Source: Nannochloris sp. 'desiccata' (Eukaryota; Chlorophyta; Trebouxiophyceae; Chlorellales; Chlorellaceae). Taken from it: a DNA stretch of 64,000 nucleotides. The notes below the pieces were generated by a model. That model made no database searches and was not told where the DNA came from. It saw only the letters and a program-made list of their open reading frames with translations. Shown here piece after piece: positions 11,751 to 22,078 of the stretch. The DNA is taken from contig JAGTXX020000016.1 of the NCBI GenBank assembly GCA_019044685.2, forward strand, positions 1 through 64,000. The letters are read 5' to 3'. The position numbers and the translations under genes are program-made. Position 1 is the stretch's first letter; every line of letters begins with the position of its first letter.

Positions 11751-12638
11751 ATGAACGCCGAAGAAGCTGCTCAGTTGATGCAGCAAGTACAGTTCTTGAC
11801 TGCTCAACTCAATGAGTTACAGCAACAACCACCAAACGTGCAACAACCACCTGCTGCACAGCGTATCAAGCCCCGCAAGCCCAATGACTTTACCGGTGAT
11901 AGTAAAGCTTTGCAAGATTGGTTGTACGCTGTATCCTTGTACTGTCATTCTATTGGTATTACTGATGATATGCTGAAGGTGCAAACTGCCTTGCCCTACC
12001 TTCAAGGTGCTGCCAAGACTTGGTTGCGTCGTGTCTACCCTGTTGATGAATGGGCTAACGCTCCTTGGGGGACTTGGCAAGATTTTTGTACGGCTTTGCG
12101 TGGTGCTTTTGGTCCCTTAGAGGAACATCTTCAAGCACGGGAACGCCTTGACAACTTACGTCAGAGGCGTACTCAATCTGTGATTGATTACATTAGAGAG
12201 TACCGTATTATTATGCTTGAATTGCCTGAAGTCACTCAGGATGAAATTGTGCATCGCTTCCGGAAAACCTTGTACTGGGACAAGGTTAAGGATTATATTA
12301 CCCAAGCTACGGCCAATAGGGTTCGTACAACTCTTCAATTTGACGAGATTGCTACTTTGGCTACTCTTGGTGAATTAGAATTGGTACCTGCTGGACAACG
12401 TGGCAGAGGCAATTACTCTGGCCAACACTGGCAGTCCCGCCAGCCGGCTTCTCTTGCTCCTGCTCCGCGTCCTGTGGCTATGGATATAGGTAGTATTGAT
12501 TCTCGTCCCTCTGGTTCTTATGATCGTGACGCCTTGCGTCGTGAAGGTCGTTGTTTCTACTGCAAAGAACGTGGTCATCGTAAAAATCAGTGTCCCGAGC
12601 TTACTAAGAAGCAGGGAAACGCGAGACACCGACAGTAA
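11751..12638 (+). CDS. gag: Gypsy B Gag polyprotein
   Basis: The 295-residue capsid/nucleocapsid protein starts at an ATG 24 bases after the accessory ORF. A glutamine-rich N-terminus precedes a retrotransposon capsid-like core ([19 protein letters not shown] at about 42-60; [17 protein letters not shown] near 130-150). An arginine-glycine linker leads to one CCHC zinc knuckle, [14 protein letters not shown] (nt 12552-12593), for RNA binding. The stop at 12636-12638 lies 16 bases past a GGGAAAC heptamer read in the correct phase for -1 slippage into pol. Intact; it should form the virus-like particle shell. Confidence 0.9.
12614..12620 (+). promoter_or_regulatory. Canonical -1 ribosomal frameshift heptamer GGGAAAC
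   Basis: In the gag frame the codons read caG-GGA-AAC, i.e. X XXY YYZ. The gag codons start at positions divisible by 3, and pol codons at positions with remainder 2, so a -1 slip here enters pol. The pol frame is open continuously from 12620. The gag stop follows 16 bases later. A downstream stem-loop or pseudoknot was not worked out. Confidence 0.8.
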
Positions 12639-15600
12639 GCGGAGTCTTTATTGCCGGTGAATCTGTTGATGATGATGTTGATGACTCCTCCACCCTTGAT
12701 TCGGGCCCAGCTCCCGCCTGCGACCCTCGATATATTCTCGCAGTGCGCTCCGAGACTGAGCTGCAGGTCCTCCGTGGAAGTGTCAATGGCCAGGTCGTCA
12801 CTATCCTTATAGATAGTGGTGCTGCTGGTAATTTTATTTCTCAAGACTTTGTTGAAACATTTGGAATTACTACGAAAAAGAAAGATCCTCAGAACTGGAC
12901 TCAAGCCCTGATGGCTGATGGTACCGCTTATGATTTGGACAAGTTTGTTCACCGTGCCACGATTAAAATCCAGAATTACAGAGATTCGGTATCTCTGGAT
13001 GTAGTGCCTTTAGATTCGGCTTATCATATGATATTAGGACAACCATGGCTGAGTAAAATTAATCCTAGTATTGATTTCTCCGAGAAAACAATAACTTTTA
13101 CTCACCGCCGTCGTCGCCACTTTTGGCAATGTCCGCGACCAGACCGACCCACTACATTGAAGCCCTTGAGTGCTGTACAACTCAATAGAGTTCTTCGTAA
13201 GCGCCCCTCTGCTAAAGTATATGCTTGCTATGTACGGCAAACTGATGACGGTGTCGAAAGTGAAGTTAAAGAAACCACCGCCGCGGGCGCTCGAAAGATG
13301 GCGAAGGATATTATGAAAGATTATGAAGATGTTTTCCCTGATAACTTGCCTCCTGGTCTGCCTCCTGAACGATCTGTAGATCATCGTATTGAACTTGAAC
13401 CTGGTGCTCAACCCACTTCCCGCCCAGACTATAAAAAGAGTCTGCCTGAATACGATGAAATGCAGCGACAGATCAACGAAATGTTGGAAAATGGTGAGAT
13501 ACAGCCTAGTGTGTCTCCCTATGGATCTCCTGTGCTGTTTGTCAAGAAGCAAGATGGCTCCTTACGTATGTGTATTGACTACAGAGCCCTGAACAAACAG
13601 ACTGTGAAGAATAGGTATCCGCTCCCTCGTATTGAAGAAATGTTGGATCGCCTTGGTAAGGCCAAGTACTTTACCAAGCTTGATCTGAGATCCGGCTATT
13701 ATCAAATACGAGTAGCTAAAGAAGATATCTACAAGACTGCATTTAGTACCAGATATGGTCACTATGAGTTTTTAGTGATGCCATTCGGTCTGACGAACGC
13801 TCCCGCCACCTTCCAGACCTTGATGAATGACATCTTCCGCACTAGTTTGGACAAATTCATTATGGTATACTTAGATGATATCCTTATCTTTAGTGATACT
13901 CTTGAGGATCATGAAAAGCACGTTCGCCACGCGCTTGACGTCCTCCGACAGAATAAGCTGTATTGCAAGGCCTCTAAGTGTGAATTTTTCCAAACTGAAG
14001 TGTCCTTCCTTGGGCATGTGATTAATGGTGATGGTGTTAAAGCTGACCCTCGTAAAGTTCAAGCTGTTGCTGACTGGCCTCAACCTAAAACAGTCCGGCA
14101 AGTCCGCTCTTTTCTCGGTCTAGCTAATTATTACCGTCGCTATGTTCATGGTTTCGCCACCATGGCTGCCCCTCTTACCTTGCTTACTAAGAAGAATGTC
14201 CCTTTTCTCTGGACTACCAAGCAAACTCAAGCGTTAGAAGCCTTGAAGACTGCCTTGTCCACCGCTCCTGTGTTGAAAAACCCTGAATTTGGCAAGCCTT
14301 TTGTGATTACTACGGACGCTTCTGAGTTCGCTGTTGGTGCTGTGCTTAGTCAATCTACGCCTGAAGGTGAACGTCCTGTTGCCTTCATTTCTCAAACTCT
14401 GAGTGATACTGAACGTCGTTGGCCTACTCATGATCGCGAACTTCATGCTATTGTCTGTGCTCTCAAACGCTGGCGACACTATGTCGAAGGCGTGCCGATC
14501 ACTGTTCTTACTGATCATAATTCCTTGAAGTACTTCATGGAACAAAAAGAACTGTCTAAGAGACAAGTACGATGGCTTGAAACTCTATTAGAGTACGGTA
14601 ATGACTTGCTCATCAAGTATCTCCCTGGTAAAGCTAATGTTGTAGCTGATGCTTTGAGCCGACGCGCTGATTTTGAACTGCCCCCTGTGTCTGACACTGT
14701 GCTGCCACAGCTGCTTCGTGTGCAAGGTATTCGTGTTAATAGTGTTCGTGTGAATTCTATTGTACATTTTGAACCTAACCAAGGTTGGTTAGCTGAATTG
14801 AAGGATGCTTTGGTTAAAGATCCTTTGTACAAGAAAGTTGTCGCTCCCGCTCCCGTTAGTAACCGTCGTCGTCGCCGCTCTCTTGCTCCTCCTCCATCTG
14901 TCTTGGATTTTGAATACTCAGTTCAAAATGATTTAATTTATGCTCACTCGAAGGGAAGAAAGAAATTGTTCGTTCCATTCAAGAAGTTGCAAGCTAAAGT
15001 TTTAGCTGCAAATCACGATCATGTGACTGCTGGTCACGTGGGCATGGATAAAACTACTGAACTGGTCTCTCGACATTACTACTGGCGTGGAATTGCACAA
15101 ACTGTACAACGTTATGTGAAATCTTGCCTTCTTTGTCAGCGAATGAAATCGAACAACCAAAAGCCTGCTGGCTTGTTGCAACCGCTGCCGGTTCCTGATC
15201 ATAATTGGGAACATGTCTCATTGGATTTGATTGGTCCTTTGCCTACCACTCTCAATGGTTTTGACTGCATTGTTACTGTAGTTGATAAGCTTTCTAAAAT
15301 GGGTCATTTCATTGCTACCACTACCACTGTTGATGCTCCTAGTCTTGCTAAGCTCATGATGAGTAATATCTTTAGGCTCCATGGTTTCCCAAAAGCCTTG
15401 ATAAGTGATCGCGATGCTCGCTTCACCAGTGAGTATTGGAAACAATTTATTGATGCTTTAGGTATTGCTTCTCACATGTCTACTGCTTTCCACCCCGAAA
15501 CTGATGGCCAGACTGAGCGAATGAATAGAACCATTGAAGAGATGCTCCGCTCTTACGTCAACGATAAGCATGATAACTGGGATGAATTGTTACCTTATCT

Positions 15601-16375
15601 GGAATTGGCTTATAATAATTCTCGTCAAGCTTCGCATAAGTTTACTCCGTACTTCTTGAATCATGGTACTCATCCTTTTGTCCCTGGTGCTGCTCTCAAT
15701 CCTACTTCTGCTGCTGCTGTCAATCCTGATACCTTGGCTCACACTGTCGCTACTGCTTTAACTGAAGCTAAACAACATTTGGAGCGTGCTCGTGAACGTC
15801 AGCGTGAATATGCAAATAAATCTAGAAGGCATGTTGAGTTTAAAGTTGGAGATCGTGTTTACCTGTCTACAGGAAATTTGAAGCTGCCCGGTCCTTCTCG
15901 CAAGCTGCAAGAAAGACGTATTGGTCCCTTCACGATATCTAAAGTGCTGTCTCCCGTTACGTATAAACTTACACTCCCTAATGAGATGCAAATTCATGCT
16001 ACCTTCCATGTCAAACTCTTACATCCCTTTGTAGAGTCTCCTGAAGAATTTGGTGAACGCGTTACTGTGGAACTGCCACCGATTGGTTATGCACGTGGTG
16101 ATGGAATCTACCTTGTCGATTATGTATTTGGTCGTAAATGGGATACTATTGTTGGTAAATCTCGCCCTGAATGGTTTTATCATGTAGCTTGGCTTGGTTA
16201 TTCTCTTGAAGAAGCTACTTGGGAACCCCGCCGCCAACTACTCGGCATTAAAGATTTAATTGATGAATATGATGCTGCACACCCACTCAAACGTGGAGAA
16301 GCTACGCTACCACCTTGGCCTACTGTTAATTCTAAAAAGAAGAAGAATATCAAGGAACCTACTAAAAAGAAGTAA
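12620..16375 (+). CDS. pol: Gypsy B Pol polyprotein (protease, RT, RNase H, integrase, chromodomain)
   Basis: The frame opens at the frameshift heptamer and runs without a stop to 16375, giving about 1,250 residues. In order: aspartic protease with [12 protein letters not shown]; reverse transcriptase with [24 protein letters not shown] and [10 protein letters not shown]; RNase H with [15 protein letters not shown] and ADALSRR. The integrase follows, with HHCC zinc domain ([12 protein letters not shown]...CLLCQRMK) and D,D-35-E core ([33 protein letters not shown]). A C-terminal chromodomain-like segment reads [19 protein letters not shown]. The first ATG-type start is unlikely to be used. 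No disabling change is seen. Chromodomain elements usually target marked chromatin. Confidence 0.93.
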
Positions 16376-16906: not shown

Positions 16907-17220
16907 CCGCAATTGCTGGCCATCTTGGAAGAGATAAAACTATTGCTGCTATTGGTACTACATATACCTGGCCTGGTATGAGAGAAGATATTGCTCGTTA
17001 TGTTGCTGAATGTCCTACCTGTCAAGTGGTCAAATCTTCAAATCAAGTAACTCCTGGGCTGTTGTCTCCTCTGGATATCCCTTGTAGACGCTGGGAGCAA
17101 ATTCATATCGATTTGATTGGTCCTTTACCTGTCACCCCTCGTGGTTTTGATGCAATTGTCACCATTGTAGATCGTTTGAGTAAAGCTGCTGTCTTTATTC
17201 CCACTACTATCACTAGTATG
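16907..17220 (+). pseudogene. Gypsy A pol part 2: integrase zinc domain and first catalytic Asp
   Basis: Continues the frame cut by Gypsy B: AGHLGRDKT, then the CPTCQ cysteine pair of the integrase zinc domain, then IHIDLIGPLPVTPRGFDAIVTIVD with the first catalytic aspartate. It is interrupted at 17220 by element C. The ORF's last two residues (TY) come from the inserted element. Confidence 0.9.
17216..17220 (+). repeat. Putative target-site duplication of element C, left copy
   Basis: gtatg here and again at 22074-22078. The Gypsy A reading frame resumes exactly after the second copy, which confirms a clean insertion. Confidence 0.75.
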
Positions 17221-17560
17221 TACTAATGGTCCTAAAAGTGTCCTAAATCTATCCTGACAAAAGATGAATTCAGGATACTTTCAGGACACTTTCAGGTTTG
17301 CAATTATGATACTTACAGGAAAAGTGATAGGACAACTTCAGGATAAAAAAAGACGAGTAGGAACTTTTAGGAGAAAAGTCCAGGACAGTTTTAGGATAAA
17401 GAAAAGATGGCTAGGGAAGTTTCAGGAGAAAAGTCCAGGAACGTTTTAGGATAAAGAAAAGATGGCTAGGGAAGTTTGCATGAAAAGTCAAGGATGGATA
17501 TAGGATAGACAAAGGATACTTTCAGGAGGAAGAAATGACATTATTAGAAAGAAATAAAGA
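17221..17560 (+). repeat. AGGATA-type subterminal repeats of element C
   Basis: About sixteen AGGA-centred words (aggata, aggaca, aggaga) occur in 330 bases, plus the 35-bp direct repeat at 17388-17422 / 17443-17477. Dense subterminal repeats commonly serve as transposase-binding sites. No ORF is supported. Confidence 0.7.
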
Positions 17561-17662
17561 CAAGTTGGGGAGAGTTCCAAGAGAGGATATACACACATCA
17601 TTATTAAGGCGCTATGGGTAACTGTAATGCAGGACAACAACATAGCAACAACCTCAAGACTT

Positions 17663-19096
17663 CTATCTTTGACTTCCAGTACGTCTATTACGTTGGCTAC
17701 CACTAGCAGCACCCACTGCTGTTGCGACGGCAGCTGCAGCACGCTGGCTACCACCAGCTGCACCTCGCTCCTTCCTGGCATCCTTTTTGCTTTGCTGCTG
17801 TTGCAAAGCAATTTCTTTTGCATTTAATTGTCCACTTTCCCAATCATATTGTTCCGCCTGCTGTTCAGCATCTTCCTGCCCTGCAGCCATTGCTTCCGCC
17901 AATTGTTCCTCGTCCATCTCTTCCTCTTCTTGCTCCTCTTCCTCTTGCATCTCTTCCTCTTCTTGCTCCTCTCCCTCTAAGTTTTCAAGATGGGATACGA
18001 TTTCCTTGGCTTCAGCAAGTGTCATTGCCTTCCACTTTCTCTGCAAATAATTAATTGTGGAATAATTAGTCTAGGGCGGTAACAAAACAATAAGTACCAC
18101 CTGCAATAATATTCACTCGCCCTCATCCCCTGTAGTTTGCCACTGATTAACTTCTCCCATTCTTTTGGGTACCCTTCTGCTTTGTAGTACACCAAGTAAT
18201 CGTGAGTCCAGTTCTCCACTCTCCTTCTAACGCTCTCATCCCACGCTGCACTCTTAGACCCAATATATCCAGGCTCGGCCGCGAACTTTACCATTTCGCT
18301 ATTGAGATTCGACATTCGTGTTCTGACAGCGCTCTTTACGCGTTTTTCTGTGACACGGGGTTGACCTCCACGAGGTGTAGAGAAGTTAACGACGCTACAA
18401 ATGGCAAAAAAGTAGCCAGGGGTCCAAAAAAGCTTTTCGACCTTGTTTTTCAATCTCTCGTTCTGTGGTTTGTCAAAACCAAAGCAACCATATGGGATGC
18501 TCCCATCCCTACCGTTGTATTGAGCGCAATATTTTTCAACCACCTCATTTAATTTCTCTGTCTCCTCCTTTGTCAATTTGTTCCTGTTGACTCCTCCCAC
18601 ACTCTGCAAGCAAGTAAATAGCGCCTGAGTATTAGTTACCTTGCATTGACAGCACAATCAGTTGCCATGTTATACTTACCGTTGCACCAGTACCAGTGCC
18701 ATTGCTTCCGCCATTCTCATCCATAGTGTCCAGACATTGGAAGCTGTGACTTGCTCCGTCCACGAATGACACCTCCAGAGTAATTGTATCACTGGTGCAA
18801 CCAGAAAAGAAAGCTTCGTGGGCGTCATTACCAGCTGCTAAGGACTTAATTCCGTCTAAAATTGCAGCAGGTGACATTAATGTGGCCACTCCGCTTGCAT
18901 CTTTGCCGTGAATGCGGACGCATTTCCGCTTCCCCTCCAAGTCATTTGAGGTCTTGATGTCATCAAATGCCGCCTTTAGGCGACGCTTTGGCGTCGCCAG
19001 CTGCCAGTTGGGGTCATTCTTCAACTCAATGGGGACGTTCACGCTGCCTTGTGCGCCGTCTTCCGTTGTTCTGAGTTGGAGTATTGTCTTAACCAT
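17663..19096 (-). CDS. Element C three-exon gene, unknown family, acidic coiled-coil C-terminus
   Basis: Exons 18680-19096, 18101-18603 and 17663-18038 on the minus strand join in frame to about 431 residues. Introns have GTAAGT...TTGCTTGCAG and GTGGTA...TTGCAGAG ends; the second acceptor must be the AG at 18039-18040 to keep frame. The first ATG is at 19096; the open frame extends slightly upstream to a TTG. Residues 1-139 contain a KRKCVRIHG segment and a beta-rich stretch. The middle (140-306) is helical with many Arg/Lys and aromatic residues (YCAQYNGRDG, WTPGYFFAICS, RRRVENWTHDYLVYYK). The end is a Glu-rich run (EEQEEEEMQEEEEQEEEEMDE) followed by a basic Ala/Arg tail. I recognise no family. 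It sits next to the element's left repeats and diverges from the dioxygenase gene. It is a candidate transposition or DNA-binding protein, by position only. Confidence 0.65.
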
Positions 19097-19629
19097 AATT
19101 TTCTGATCCAAGAATAACAGTTAATTCTGTGAAAACCTCCATCCTTTGCATTCTTTTACGCGATTTCCTCTCTTGTTATTTTTTTTTTGAATCTTTCCTT
19201 AAAAAGCCTTCAGGAAATAAAGCCTCTTTCAATGAAAGCGGGTTGCTTTTCAACCGCTGGTTTTTTACAGTTCCACAAGCGGCAGGGAGCGCTATACCTG
19301 TGTTCTCGCATCTTTAGAGCCAACACAATTCACATTTTAGAATAGAACGTCAACTTGAATCTTCGTTCGAACTTGGCTGGCACCCCATCGGCTTCATCAA
19401 TACTCTACAAAGAATTCCCAGAAATTAGATTTCCTTGTAAAAGGCGCTTTCTCCTAAAACAAGTAAATTGTAATCTTGAAGGTAGGATTCTCTTTGTGAT
19501 GAACAAAAACTGACTGTTTTTAAGTTTCTATTTTCTGAGAAATGACGTACATAGGTGTATTCACTAGTTTCGCTCAGCGTATTGGGTTTTGTAGGTCTTG
19601 CGGAACTTCTCTATTGCTTTTTTGATCAC
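19097..19629. promoter_or_regulatory. Divergent intergenic region inside element C
   Basis: 533 bases separate the unknown three-exon gene (minus) and the dioxygenase-like gene (plus). It is presumably a shared promoter region. No clear TATA box was found; the short ORFs here look non-coding. Confidence 0.4.
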
Positions 19630-21090
19630 ATGCCGCCAAAACGCTCTAATGCTAGCCGTGTGGCTACCACTAATGCCATGCGTAAGAAGAGGTTAAAGAC
19701 CTTGCATGACTATGGAAGCACCAGGTCGTCTATAGATGCAGAATCAAGGATGAAAGGGGCATCTGAGAAAGTGGTGGTGACGGAAGGCACTCCCGCTGTC
19801 GTTTATAAAGCCGGCGGGGCCCATTACTGGGAGTTGTTGACGGAAGCACAAAAGTATTTGTCTAAACCGGTGGAACTACCCAATATCTACGTCGTAACCA
19901 AGGCAAACGTTTTGCCTTTTGGCAAGGACCTGCCCTTAAGCAAGGTATCTGAAACAATACCTACTGCTGCCACCAAAGCACGAATTAAAGGTACTATTAC
20001 CGATACTAATAGTAAAATACAAGACTACCTTGTAGATAATGTGGTTGGGTACCACCAACTGGATTTACCTTGTGTTGTTCTAGCGACGCATGAAGTGAAT
20101 GAAGCTTTGCTAGCAGCCGCAAAGGAGGCAGGCTCTCAAGATCTCAAGATGCCGTCAGAGGAAAAATATTATTTATTATTTGCTAGCGTTGACCTTTGCC
20201 AATTGCGCTTGTTGACGTTAGAGGGAGCGAGCGTGTTGGGTCACGCCAACGAAGCGATAGCTGATTCAACATTAAGCGTACCGATAACATCACCAGCTAC
20301 AAAGCGGGCTCATTGGAAGTTGTTGGGAACTGAAATCTTAAATCTACCAAAACAATTGAAGAGCAAGGTAGGAAGTAATTATAAGAAGATAAAACGTAGA
20401 ATTCCCCCCGCTAACATGTTTTCTACGTTCCTTCGCTACTCTAGGAACCCTAAAGACTATAAAAACGGGACACAAGTTGGTGGTCGTACTGTAAATGGGG
20501 AACCCGTAAAGCAACAAACTGCCTGCTCCTCTGCTATCGCTAGCCGTGAAGTACATAACGTTATTATGCAAGCGATGAAGCCGATAACTCTGTTACAAAG
20601 AGACTTTTTAGCTGCTAACAATCCTACTACCACGTCAGTAGTAGTTAATTGGATGAATATGAATGCCAAGGCTATCACGACGGGTGGTTGGGGCGTTCTA
20701 CCTCACTTAGATGGTATGGATTCTGGGGGCGTAGCTTACATAATTCAGTACGGACTAGGAGATTTGAGAGAATTACACGGAGGACATATGTGCTTGCCGC
20801 AATTACACCTAATTTGCCCAGTAGGAGCCTGCACTGTGCATTTTTTAAGAACTGGCTCTTTATTACACAATTCATTGCCTCACGTTGCAAGTGAGAAAGC
20901 ACGGGTAGTTGGCACATCATTACACGTCAATAAAAGTTTTTTGATAATGTCTAACGCTCAAAGTAGGATGCAGGGTCTTGATGGCGAGGGCTATGTGCAG
21001 TACGCTCAGGAAAGTTGCATTGACAGTGAAACTTTAAAGGACTGCACAGAGATGAAAAAGTTATTAAAATTTGGAAATTGGAGGGTTTAA
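19630..21090 (+). CDS. Probable Fe(II)/2-oxoglutarate-dependent dioxygenase carried by element C
   Basis: The 486-residue product starts at an ATG followed by PPKRSNASR, a basic N-terminus that could be a nuclear signal; the open frame runs 25 codons further upstream without an ATG. The last 150 residues resemble a double-stranded beta-helix dioxygenase. They show an H-x-D iron motif in VLPHLDGMDSGG (H359, D361), a GG-turn followed by a LP pair (ELHGGHMCLP), a distal histidine in SLLHNSLPHV (H413 or H418), and a basic residue in EKARVVGTSL (R425) placed to bind 2-oxoglutarate. The spacing fits TET/JBP-like and related prolyl-hydroxylase-like enzymes. The N-terminal 330 residues match nothing I recognise. 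TET/JBP-type enzymes oxidise methylated bases and are known as passengers of some eukaryotic DNA transposons. Assignment to that branch is inference; assignment to the dioxygenase fold is moderate. Confidence 0.55.
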   Translation: MPPKRSNASRVATTNAMRKKRLKTLHDYGSTRSSIDAESRMKGASEKVVVTEGTPAVVYKAGGAHYWELLTEAQKYLSKPVELPNIYVVTKANVLPFGKDLPLSKVSETIPTAATKARIKGTITDTNSKIQDYLVDNVVGYHQLDLPCVVLATHEVNEALLAAAKEAGSQDLKMPSEEKYYLLFASVDLCQLRLLTLEGASVLGHANEAIADSTLSVPITSPATKRAHWKLLGTEILNLPKQLKSKVGSNYKKIKRRIPPANMFSTFLRYSRNPKDYKNGTQVGGRTVNGEPVKQQTACSSAIASREVHNVIMQAMKPITLLQRDFLAANNPTTTSVVVNWMNMNAKAITTGGWGVLPHLDGMDSGGVAYIIQYGLGDLRELHGGHMCLPQLHLICPVGACTVHFLRTGSLLHNSLPHVASEKARVVGTSLHVNKSFLIMSNAQSRMQGLDGEGYVQYAQESCIDSETLKDCTEMKKLLKFGNWRV

Positions 21091-21261
21091 AGGTGTATTT
21101 CTTAAATATGTTACATATTGCAGTATTTCAGATAATGGTAAATCTTCAAAGAAGGCAGAAGAAATAAACATTTAGCAGCTTGCTGTCAACAATTAGCAGC
21201 TTGCTGTCGGGAGAGAAAGAAAGAAAGCAAAATAAAATGATTCCGCGCCACTTTTATTGCG

Positions 21262-21780
21262 ATGGCTACCAATAAGACCCTAAATAATCCATTTAAATCA
21301 CTCAACCCCATTCATTCGCACGGGAGCAAGGCAGTAGATAAGGAGCTGGACGCGATCAAAGGAGTAATTAATTTAAAAAGTAATCTAATGAATTCATATT
21401 CTTCAAAGAAGTTCCCACACTTGGAATATCATCCAGAGAGTGATAAAATTCACGAAAAGCTTTGGGACTTCCAAGTGAACACCCTGAAAAGAGCGACTTT
21501 TACAGGAGTAATTGCGACCGAGATGCTCTCTCATTGAAGCGGCTTAAAGAGGATGTTGCCAAGTACGCAAAGAAGCTGAAAACCACGTCTTGCCAAGGCG
21601 GATACATTGATATACATGCAATATCTCAGTTACTGAACAAAAAATCATTTTGCAAAAGCATTCGGATGGGGACAAGTACGTTGAGTATGATCCCACCCAT
21701 GGCGTTGCTGAGGATGGTTTGCCGCCATTGCATCTTGCTTTCAGGAAAAACCATTACGTAGCTCTTGTGAAGGCGGAATA
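21262..21780 (+). pseudogene. OTU-like cysteine protease remnant (frameshifted)
   Basis: A first frame (21262-21537, 91 aa) gives way to a second frame from about 21530 (LKRLKEDVAKYAKKLK, then GGYIDIHAISQLLNKK). A third frame from about 21650 reads DGDKYVEYDPTHG and ends with PPLHLAFRKNHYVALVKAE at 21780. GG-x-I-x-I-x-AIS-x-LL followed by a terminal HL-x-F-x-x-NHY matches the second half of OTU deubiquitinases, whose catalytic histidine lies in the NHY. The catalytic-cysteine block is not seen. The frame change near 21646 lies in a run of six A, so it may be a sequence error. OTU-like proteases occur in several transposons and viruses. Low to moderate confidence. Confidence 0.4.
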
Positions 21781-22073
21781 GGAGTATTACATGGTAGGAA
21801 GACTATCTCAAGGCACTAGCTTAAAGTAGTAGATGGGAAAGGAGAAAGGAAGGGCACTTTAGGTGAACCAGTGGCGGTGCCCAGCGCTGGCATGGCGGAG
21901 GTCATTAAAGTAGGTCAATTGCGACTTTTTCTTAAATTTTTTTGTACAGGTACTTTTATGTAAGGTATAGAAGGTATGTAGAACAGTAAATAAGGGCATT
22001 AGAGTCGTTTTAGAGAAATGCAATTTTACAAGATAGTTTTAGGATAGTTGCAAGAAGACTTGTTCCCCCTAGT
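21781..22073. other. Right end of element C, non-coding
   Basis: No ORF. Repeated aaggtat and ttttaggatag words echo the left-end repeats. It ends ttgttccccctagt. Confidence 0.5.
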
Positions 22074-22078
22074 GTATG
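22074..22078 (+). repeat. Putative target-site duplication of element C, right copy
   Basis: gtatg, matching 17216-17220. Confidence 0.75.

Follow-up and report, generated by a model that had tools for sequence, protein, structure and literature searches.

A probable EnSpm/CACTA-type deletion derivative with a dioxygenase-like gene from Nannochloris sp. 'desiccata', a green alga

What kind of mobile DNA can occupy the integrase gene of a Gypsy retrotransposon while carrying a dioxygenase-like gene and no known transposase? The question is raised by element C, an insert within a stretch of 64,000 nucleotides (the window, which lies on C16) from the chlorophyte Nannochloris sp. 'desiccata' (Chlorellales). 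The original prediction, made from the letters of the window, took the insert to be the unit between two 'gtatg' motifs (17221-22073) and judged that it fits an undescribed or poorly described class of DNA transposon. We searched the genome of the alga (21.55 Mb, 18 contigs) for further copies, and the outcome makes it very probable that element C is non-autonomous and derives by internal deletion from an EnSpm/CACTA-type cut-and-paste transposon of about 8.75 kb. The limits of the element are as follows, a slash marking the border.

17208..17210, no strand: left target-site duplication, TAT (flank ...CTACTAT/CACTAG)
17211..22074, no strand: whole element C, probable EnSpm/CACTA-type deletion derivative, 4864 bp
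17211..17230, plus strand: 5' terminus, CACTAGTATGTACTAATGGT, exact at four genome places, with a fifth, in C2, truncated in its first bases
22055..22074, minus strand: 3' terminus, read inward CACTAGGGGGAACAAGTCTT, whose CCCCCTAGTG end is also kept in an old relic in C6
22075..22077, no strand: right target-site duplication, TAT

Element C starts with CACTAG and finishes with CTAGTG, and TAT is duplicated on both sides, giving a 3-bp target-site duplication (TSD); in the terminal inverted repeats the first 6 of 6 bp are paired, with poor pairing further in. Gypsy integrase domains lie on both sides and the integrase frame is interrupted, as had been predicted, but the borders that had been given to the base were 10 bp off on the left and 1 bp off on the right: the left 'gtatg' falls inside the element (CACTAGTATG), as its other copies show, and the right 'gtatg' is made up of the element's last G, the TAT duplication and one host base. 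Similarly, the ends previously read as 'ACTAnnGG' are CACTAG...CTAGTG, and the predicted lack of an LTR was borne out.

The unoccupied state of the site is preserved elsewhere in the genome. A search with the left flank returned seven places, one of which is the window itself, and all six of the other copies of the interrupted Gypsy are free of the insert, reading CTACTAT/GACTG at the site (CCCACTACTAT/GACTG) and containing CCCACTACTATGACTGTGACTGC uninterrupted. Genome-wide, the 5' terminus of the element occurs at five places (four with CACTAGTATGTACTAATGGTCCT exact, and the truncated one in C2) and the 3' terminus at four. A 3-bp TSD is present in two of the three copies that have both borders (TAT/TAT in the window and GTT/GTT in C14). 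The copy at C8:190044 lacks its last TG, its right border being damaged, and shows no duplication; a search for its empty site found none. The copy in C2 adjoins another copy of the element at its left border, in inverted orientation, and a truncated copy at C8:130968 has a left border only.

Searching with the whole element matched at least 14 places in the genome, fragments included. The short form, i.e., that of the window, was found at two sites (the window and C8:190044) with only 2 differences in 4862 aligned positions, a divergence low enough to suggest recent activity. Both short copies sit within Gypsy reading frames, and the flanks of the C14 copy, judged by eye, are Gypsy too; such Gypsy DNA around the copies is a likely target of silencing. 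Four older traces also persist: three stretches that match the element's 3' subterminal part (74-77%), and one half of a dioxygenase gene, the frameshifted and degraded N-terminal half at C6:2289235-2289989. One of the subterminal relics (C6:1547186-1547371, 74%) still ends in CCCCCTAGTG, and this terminus suggests that the family is older in the genome. The matches at C9:424218-424317 and C10:456915-457011 (74-77%) have the stretch AGGATAGACAAAGGATGCTTTGAGGATAG in common, with no CTAGTG end at that point.

The window copy does lack a known transposase, as originally predicted, and within the family the C14 copy encodes a probable transposase, a protein of about 943 aa with Transposase_21-type motifs in relaxed form. 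The difference lies at a single junction:

19255..19256, no strand: deletion junction, with 'CG' in place of the 3889-bp transposase-encoding segment of C14

In the C14 copy, 3889 bp separate element positions 2044 and 2047, which are separated by 'CG' in the window, and by arithmetic the long form would measure about 8751 bp. The segment is whole in C14, and C18 and the two inverted copies of C2 showed parts of it only; its left junction is also present in C2 (in two head-to-head copies) and its right junction in C18. Its open frame in C14 has 946 aa, the transposase protein about 943 (P0005), and in NCBI model P0006 the transposase frame is joined to a further exon upstream, which has a stretch rich in Cys and His. 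Because C14 holds the transposase-encoding 3889 bp that are replaced by 'CG', element C is best read as a non-autonomous derivative by internal deletion, and the window copy would appear transposase-less for that reason. The deletion may have been produced by end-joining that left 'CG', and the short form would have moved afterwards, since its two copies are at different sites, with transposase provided in trans from longer copies. An undamaged long-form copy was not found in the genome: that of C14 has an LTR retrotransposon inside its three-exon gene and has lost 1 bp early in its dioxygenase frame, and those of C2 are truncated or fused. The inserted retrotransposon (C14:4939-14501) has a 1047-aa Gypsy pol frame and a CACCT duplication. 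In C2, two long-form copies lie head to head in a large inverted arrangement with a truncated 5' junction (C2:30768-43016), and at C2:38572-43016 a further deletion fuses transposase and dioxygenase in frame (a 1245-aa open frame; 1304 aa in the NCBI model, P0006).

The assignment of the long-form protein to the CACTA transposases draws on an ordered set of motifs. In the Transposase_21 domain, box I surrounds the first D, box II contains G-P, and box III combines the second D with CxxC, and an H-x3-L-G box occurs in animal and most fungal members (PMC1636069). P0005 has, in order, D217-F-x3-F-x7-G, P257-G-P, D348-x-P, C368-x2-C371 and H487-x3-L-G, with a D-to-D spacing of 131, against about 80 in PMC1636069. 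These look like the CACTA (Transposase_21) motifs in relaxed form, the strict plant form of box I being absent from P0005. None of 20,000 shuffles of P0005 matched the composite motif, but this counts for less than it may seem, since the relaxed pattern was composed with the protein already in view and the strict plant form does not fit. The CMC zinc site has been described as a C(2)C and an H(3-4)H pair that precede the last acidic residue (Kojima, PMC12730594). In P0005, the first pair is C368-x2-C371, and the second is H640-x3-C644 instead of H-x3-4-H, the H-x3-C form being present in both relatives. Pfam and NCBIfam profile searches gave no credible match for the transposase, Transposase_21 included, and the AlphaFold model has no usable structure (pLDDT 32.3). 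The stretch YPELTIAEGYA resembles what we take to be the C-terminal part of plant TNP2 proteins. In a genome-wide search, PF02992 matched nowhere, a negative that means little with the controls silent too. Protein searches found only Nannochloris relatives among the best 7996 candidates, and viral contigs contained none. A diverged relative (29-33% identity) lies in two pieces near a contig end (C1:7266-9214) and keeps the P0005 motifs over its two pieces; the 10 kb examined there contain no paired CACTA/TAGTG ends between equal 3-bp duplications.

To the left of the deletion junction lie the repeats and a gene that had been predicted to be readable in three exons, which was borne out:

17211..17630, no strand: 5' subterminal repeat region with AGGATA-type motifs (a 55-bp repeat in two adjacent copies that are 93% alike, plus a third copy at 64%)
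17663..18038, minus strand: three-exon gene, exon 3, acidic/glutamine-rich, with a basic C-terminus
18101..18603, minus strand: three-exon gene, exon 2, 3' limit uncertain, since P0007 ends the exon earlier
18680..19096, minus strand: three-exon gene, exon 1, start codon at 19096

Our reading of the gene (19096-17663, minus strand) gives 431 aa; NCBI models P0007 and P0008 give 425 and 368 aa, differing in splicing with the same termini. All 17 of its matches in the genome are within copies of the element, and the protein has neither a credible match in Pfam and NCBIfam nor a relative outside Nannochloris among the best 7994 candidates. Dense AGGATA repeats had been predicted to bound the insert on both sides, which proved correct for the left end, with 13 AGGA(T/C/A)A motifs in the first 420 bp (mean 1.96 and maximum 7 in 2000 Markov resamplings), but not for the right, where the single AGGAHA in the last 130 bp was reached in 404 of 2000 resamplings and is not above chance. 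TNPA-type proteins of different CACTA elements have little common sequence, but their known or presumed binding sites are the subterminal repeats (PMC2613891), and by this analogy the three-exon protein is possibly TNPA-like.

To the right of the junction lies the gene from which the question started:

19630..21090, plus strand: intact dioxygenase-like gene, 486 aa, with HxD at H359/D361, H413 and R425 (first Met counted)

The HxD...H...R signature of 2OG/Fe(II) enzymes is invariant in the three sequences aligned and agrees with the prediction of a dioxygenase-like gene inside the element. The closest relatives found are two environmental proteins in ENA (42-44% identical); none were found in viral contigs or genome contigs. 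Searches with Pfam, NCBIfam and PDB profiles produced no credible match.

How element C originated can be weighed against three other accounts. That it results from a one-off rearrangement instead of a mobile element has practically no probability, as several identical-ended copies at different sites, TSDs and unoccupied sites all speak against it and nothing was found in its favor; other copies with the same ends and empty sites were what the original prediction had proposed to look for, and finding them refuted this account. The predicted undescribed class stood as to DNA transposon and fell as to undescribed, given the CACTAG/CTAGTG ends, the 3-bp TSD and the linked transposase. A new eukaryotic class, in which the three-exon protein or the product of the dioxygenase gene would drive the movement, might be favored by the failure of Pfam to recognize the long-form transposase and by a three-exon protein that has no relatives beyond Nannochloris among those best candidates, or beyond the family in the genome; however, the ends, the TSD and the Transposase_21-type motifs of the linked transposase suffice without a new enzyme, and we rejected such a class as highly improbable. 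Of described groups, KDZ (Zisupton) was rejected on its 8-bp TSD, against 3 bp here, and Plavaka on its TGT..ACA or CATCA..TGATG ends, against CACTAG..CTAGTG; a genome-wide search for PF18759 (Plavaka) had no match, with a control so weak (0 of 14 over the cut-off) that this negative means little. An ancestral short form, into which the 3889-bp transposase segment was inserted later, is likewise highly improbable: the two forms do differ by one clean replacement, but the ends of the segment, inspected by eye, have neither inverted repeat nor target duplication, the segment replaces 'CG' with no target duplicated, and it holds the transposase gene that the short form needs. The termini, the 3-bp duplication and the transposase of the longer copies place the family in EnSpm/CACTA or adjacent to it, with element C as its probable deletion derivative.

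What the dioxygenase does within this family is a more finely balanced matter. A role as cargo or in the modification of proteins, unconnected with silencing, comes not far short of an even chance. Consistent with this, Pfam Tet_JBP (PF12851) has no match in the protein at E<=1 and none genome-wide at E<=10 (where a weak control, 0 of 14 over the cut-off, leaves the negative with little meaning), no PDB sequence match links the protein to known 2OG enzymes, and its AlphaFold model has no usable structure (pLDDT 29.5). Against it, the frame is intact in both short copies, the degraded N-terminal relic in C6 speaks of an older history in the genome, and fungal EnSpm elements carry TET/JBP genes (PMC12730594). 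Of the four genome-wide family searches (PF02992, PF18759, PF12851 and PF00145), that for C5-DNA-methylase gave 7 matches, at four loci of the host. Observed/expected CpG is 0.71 in the element, 0.75 and 0.72 in the Gypsy flanks and 0.67 in the window; the element is not below its surroundings, a composition without sign of past methylation that supports neither side. As the other reading, we infer DNA oxidation and relief of silencing: the dioxygenase would keep the element active by oxidizing its methylated bases or some other silencing mark on it, and the three-exon protein would bind the AGGATA motifs of the left-end subterminal repeats, in the manner of TNPA in the Spm element of maize. 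Spm is also activated by TnpA, in correlation with DNA demethylation (PMC10398659). In its full form, this reading would make the family a green-algal CACTA lineage with a DNA-modifying dioxygenase of its own, apart from the TET/JBP family, and a TNPA-like protein that brings the dioxygenase to the subterminal repeats, and the transposase-less form, by keeping both, an anti-silencing parasite moved by others; we put this forward tentatively, at rather less than an even chance.

Among known systems, the EnSpm/CACTA elements of maize and soybean (Spm/dSpm and Tgm) have, like the element C family, CACTA ends, subterminal repeats (here an array at the 5' end), a transposase with a second protein (here candidates for both), and internal-deletion derivatives that need proteins in trans (PMC2613891). 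Unlike in Spm and Tgm, divergence puts the transposase of the element C family out of reach of Pfam Transposase_21, its second protein is without a credible Pfam or NCBIfam match, the host is a green alga, and a dioxygenase gene is present. The fungal TET/JBP EnSpm elements (Kojima 2025, PMC12730594) combine 5'-CAC..GTG-3' ends and a 3-bp TSD with an EnSpm/Plavaka-like transposase and a dioxygenase together, as the long form here probably does; element C differs in its chlorophyte host, in a dioxygenase outside Pfam Tet_JBP and in a window copy without transposase. The words 'green alga' and 'chlorophyt' have no match in the searched text of PMC12730594, where Chlamydomonas occurs twice, both times for its TET homologue CMD1. 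EnSpm-Plavaka elements of Auxenochlorella (PMC12636532) belong to the same transposon clade in a related trebouxiophyte alga, but the main text of that paper has 0 matches to 'dioxygenase'. Chlamydomonas CMD1 has HxD...H...R at similar spacing (H345, D347, H397, R410) but is not presented as transposon-borne in the text seen (PMC7854593), and our dioxygenase profiles gave no PDB sequence match. Among the matches listed, the open-licence literature holds no report of a dioxygenase-bearing algal CACTA element, and an element of this kind in an alga, its dioxygenase lying outside Pfam Tet_JBP, appears to be new, fungal TET/JBP EnSpm elements being already known. With a candidate demethylation enzyme and a candidate binding protein in one element, the link between them is directly testable. 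If the dioxygenase acts on DNA, the capture of base-oxidizing enzymes by DNA transposons would extend from fungi to green algae, and the captured enzyme family would be one that current models miss.

Two further features concern the surroundings of the dioxygenase gene and of the insert. Downstream of the gene, the original prediction had seen an OTU-like remnant:

21261..21780, plus strand: broken reading frames, called OTU-like in the original prediction, without Pfam support

Pfam, searched at E<=10, matched none of its three fragments to OTU, and the OTU domain, a call made by eye, is not supported. Directly upstream of the interrupted Gypsy, the window contains an uninterrupted Gypsy pol frame of 1255 aa (12608-16375).
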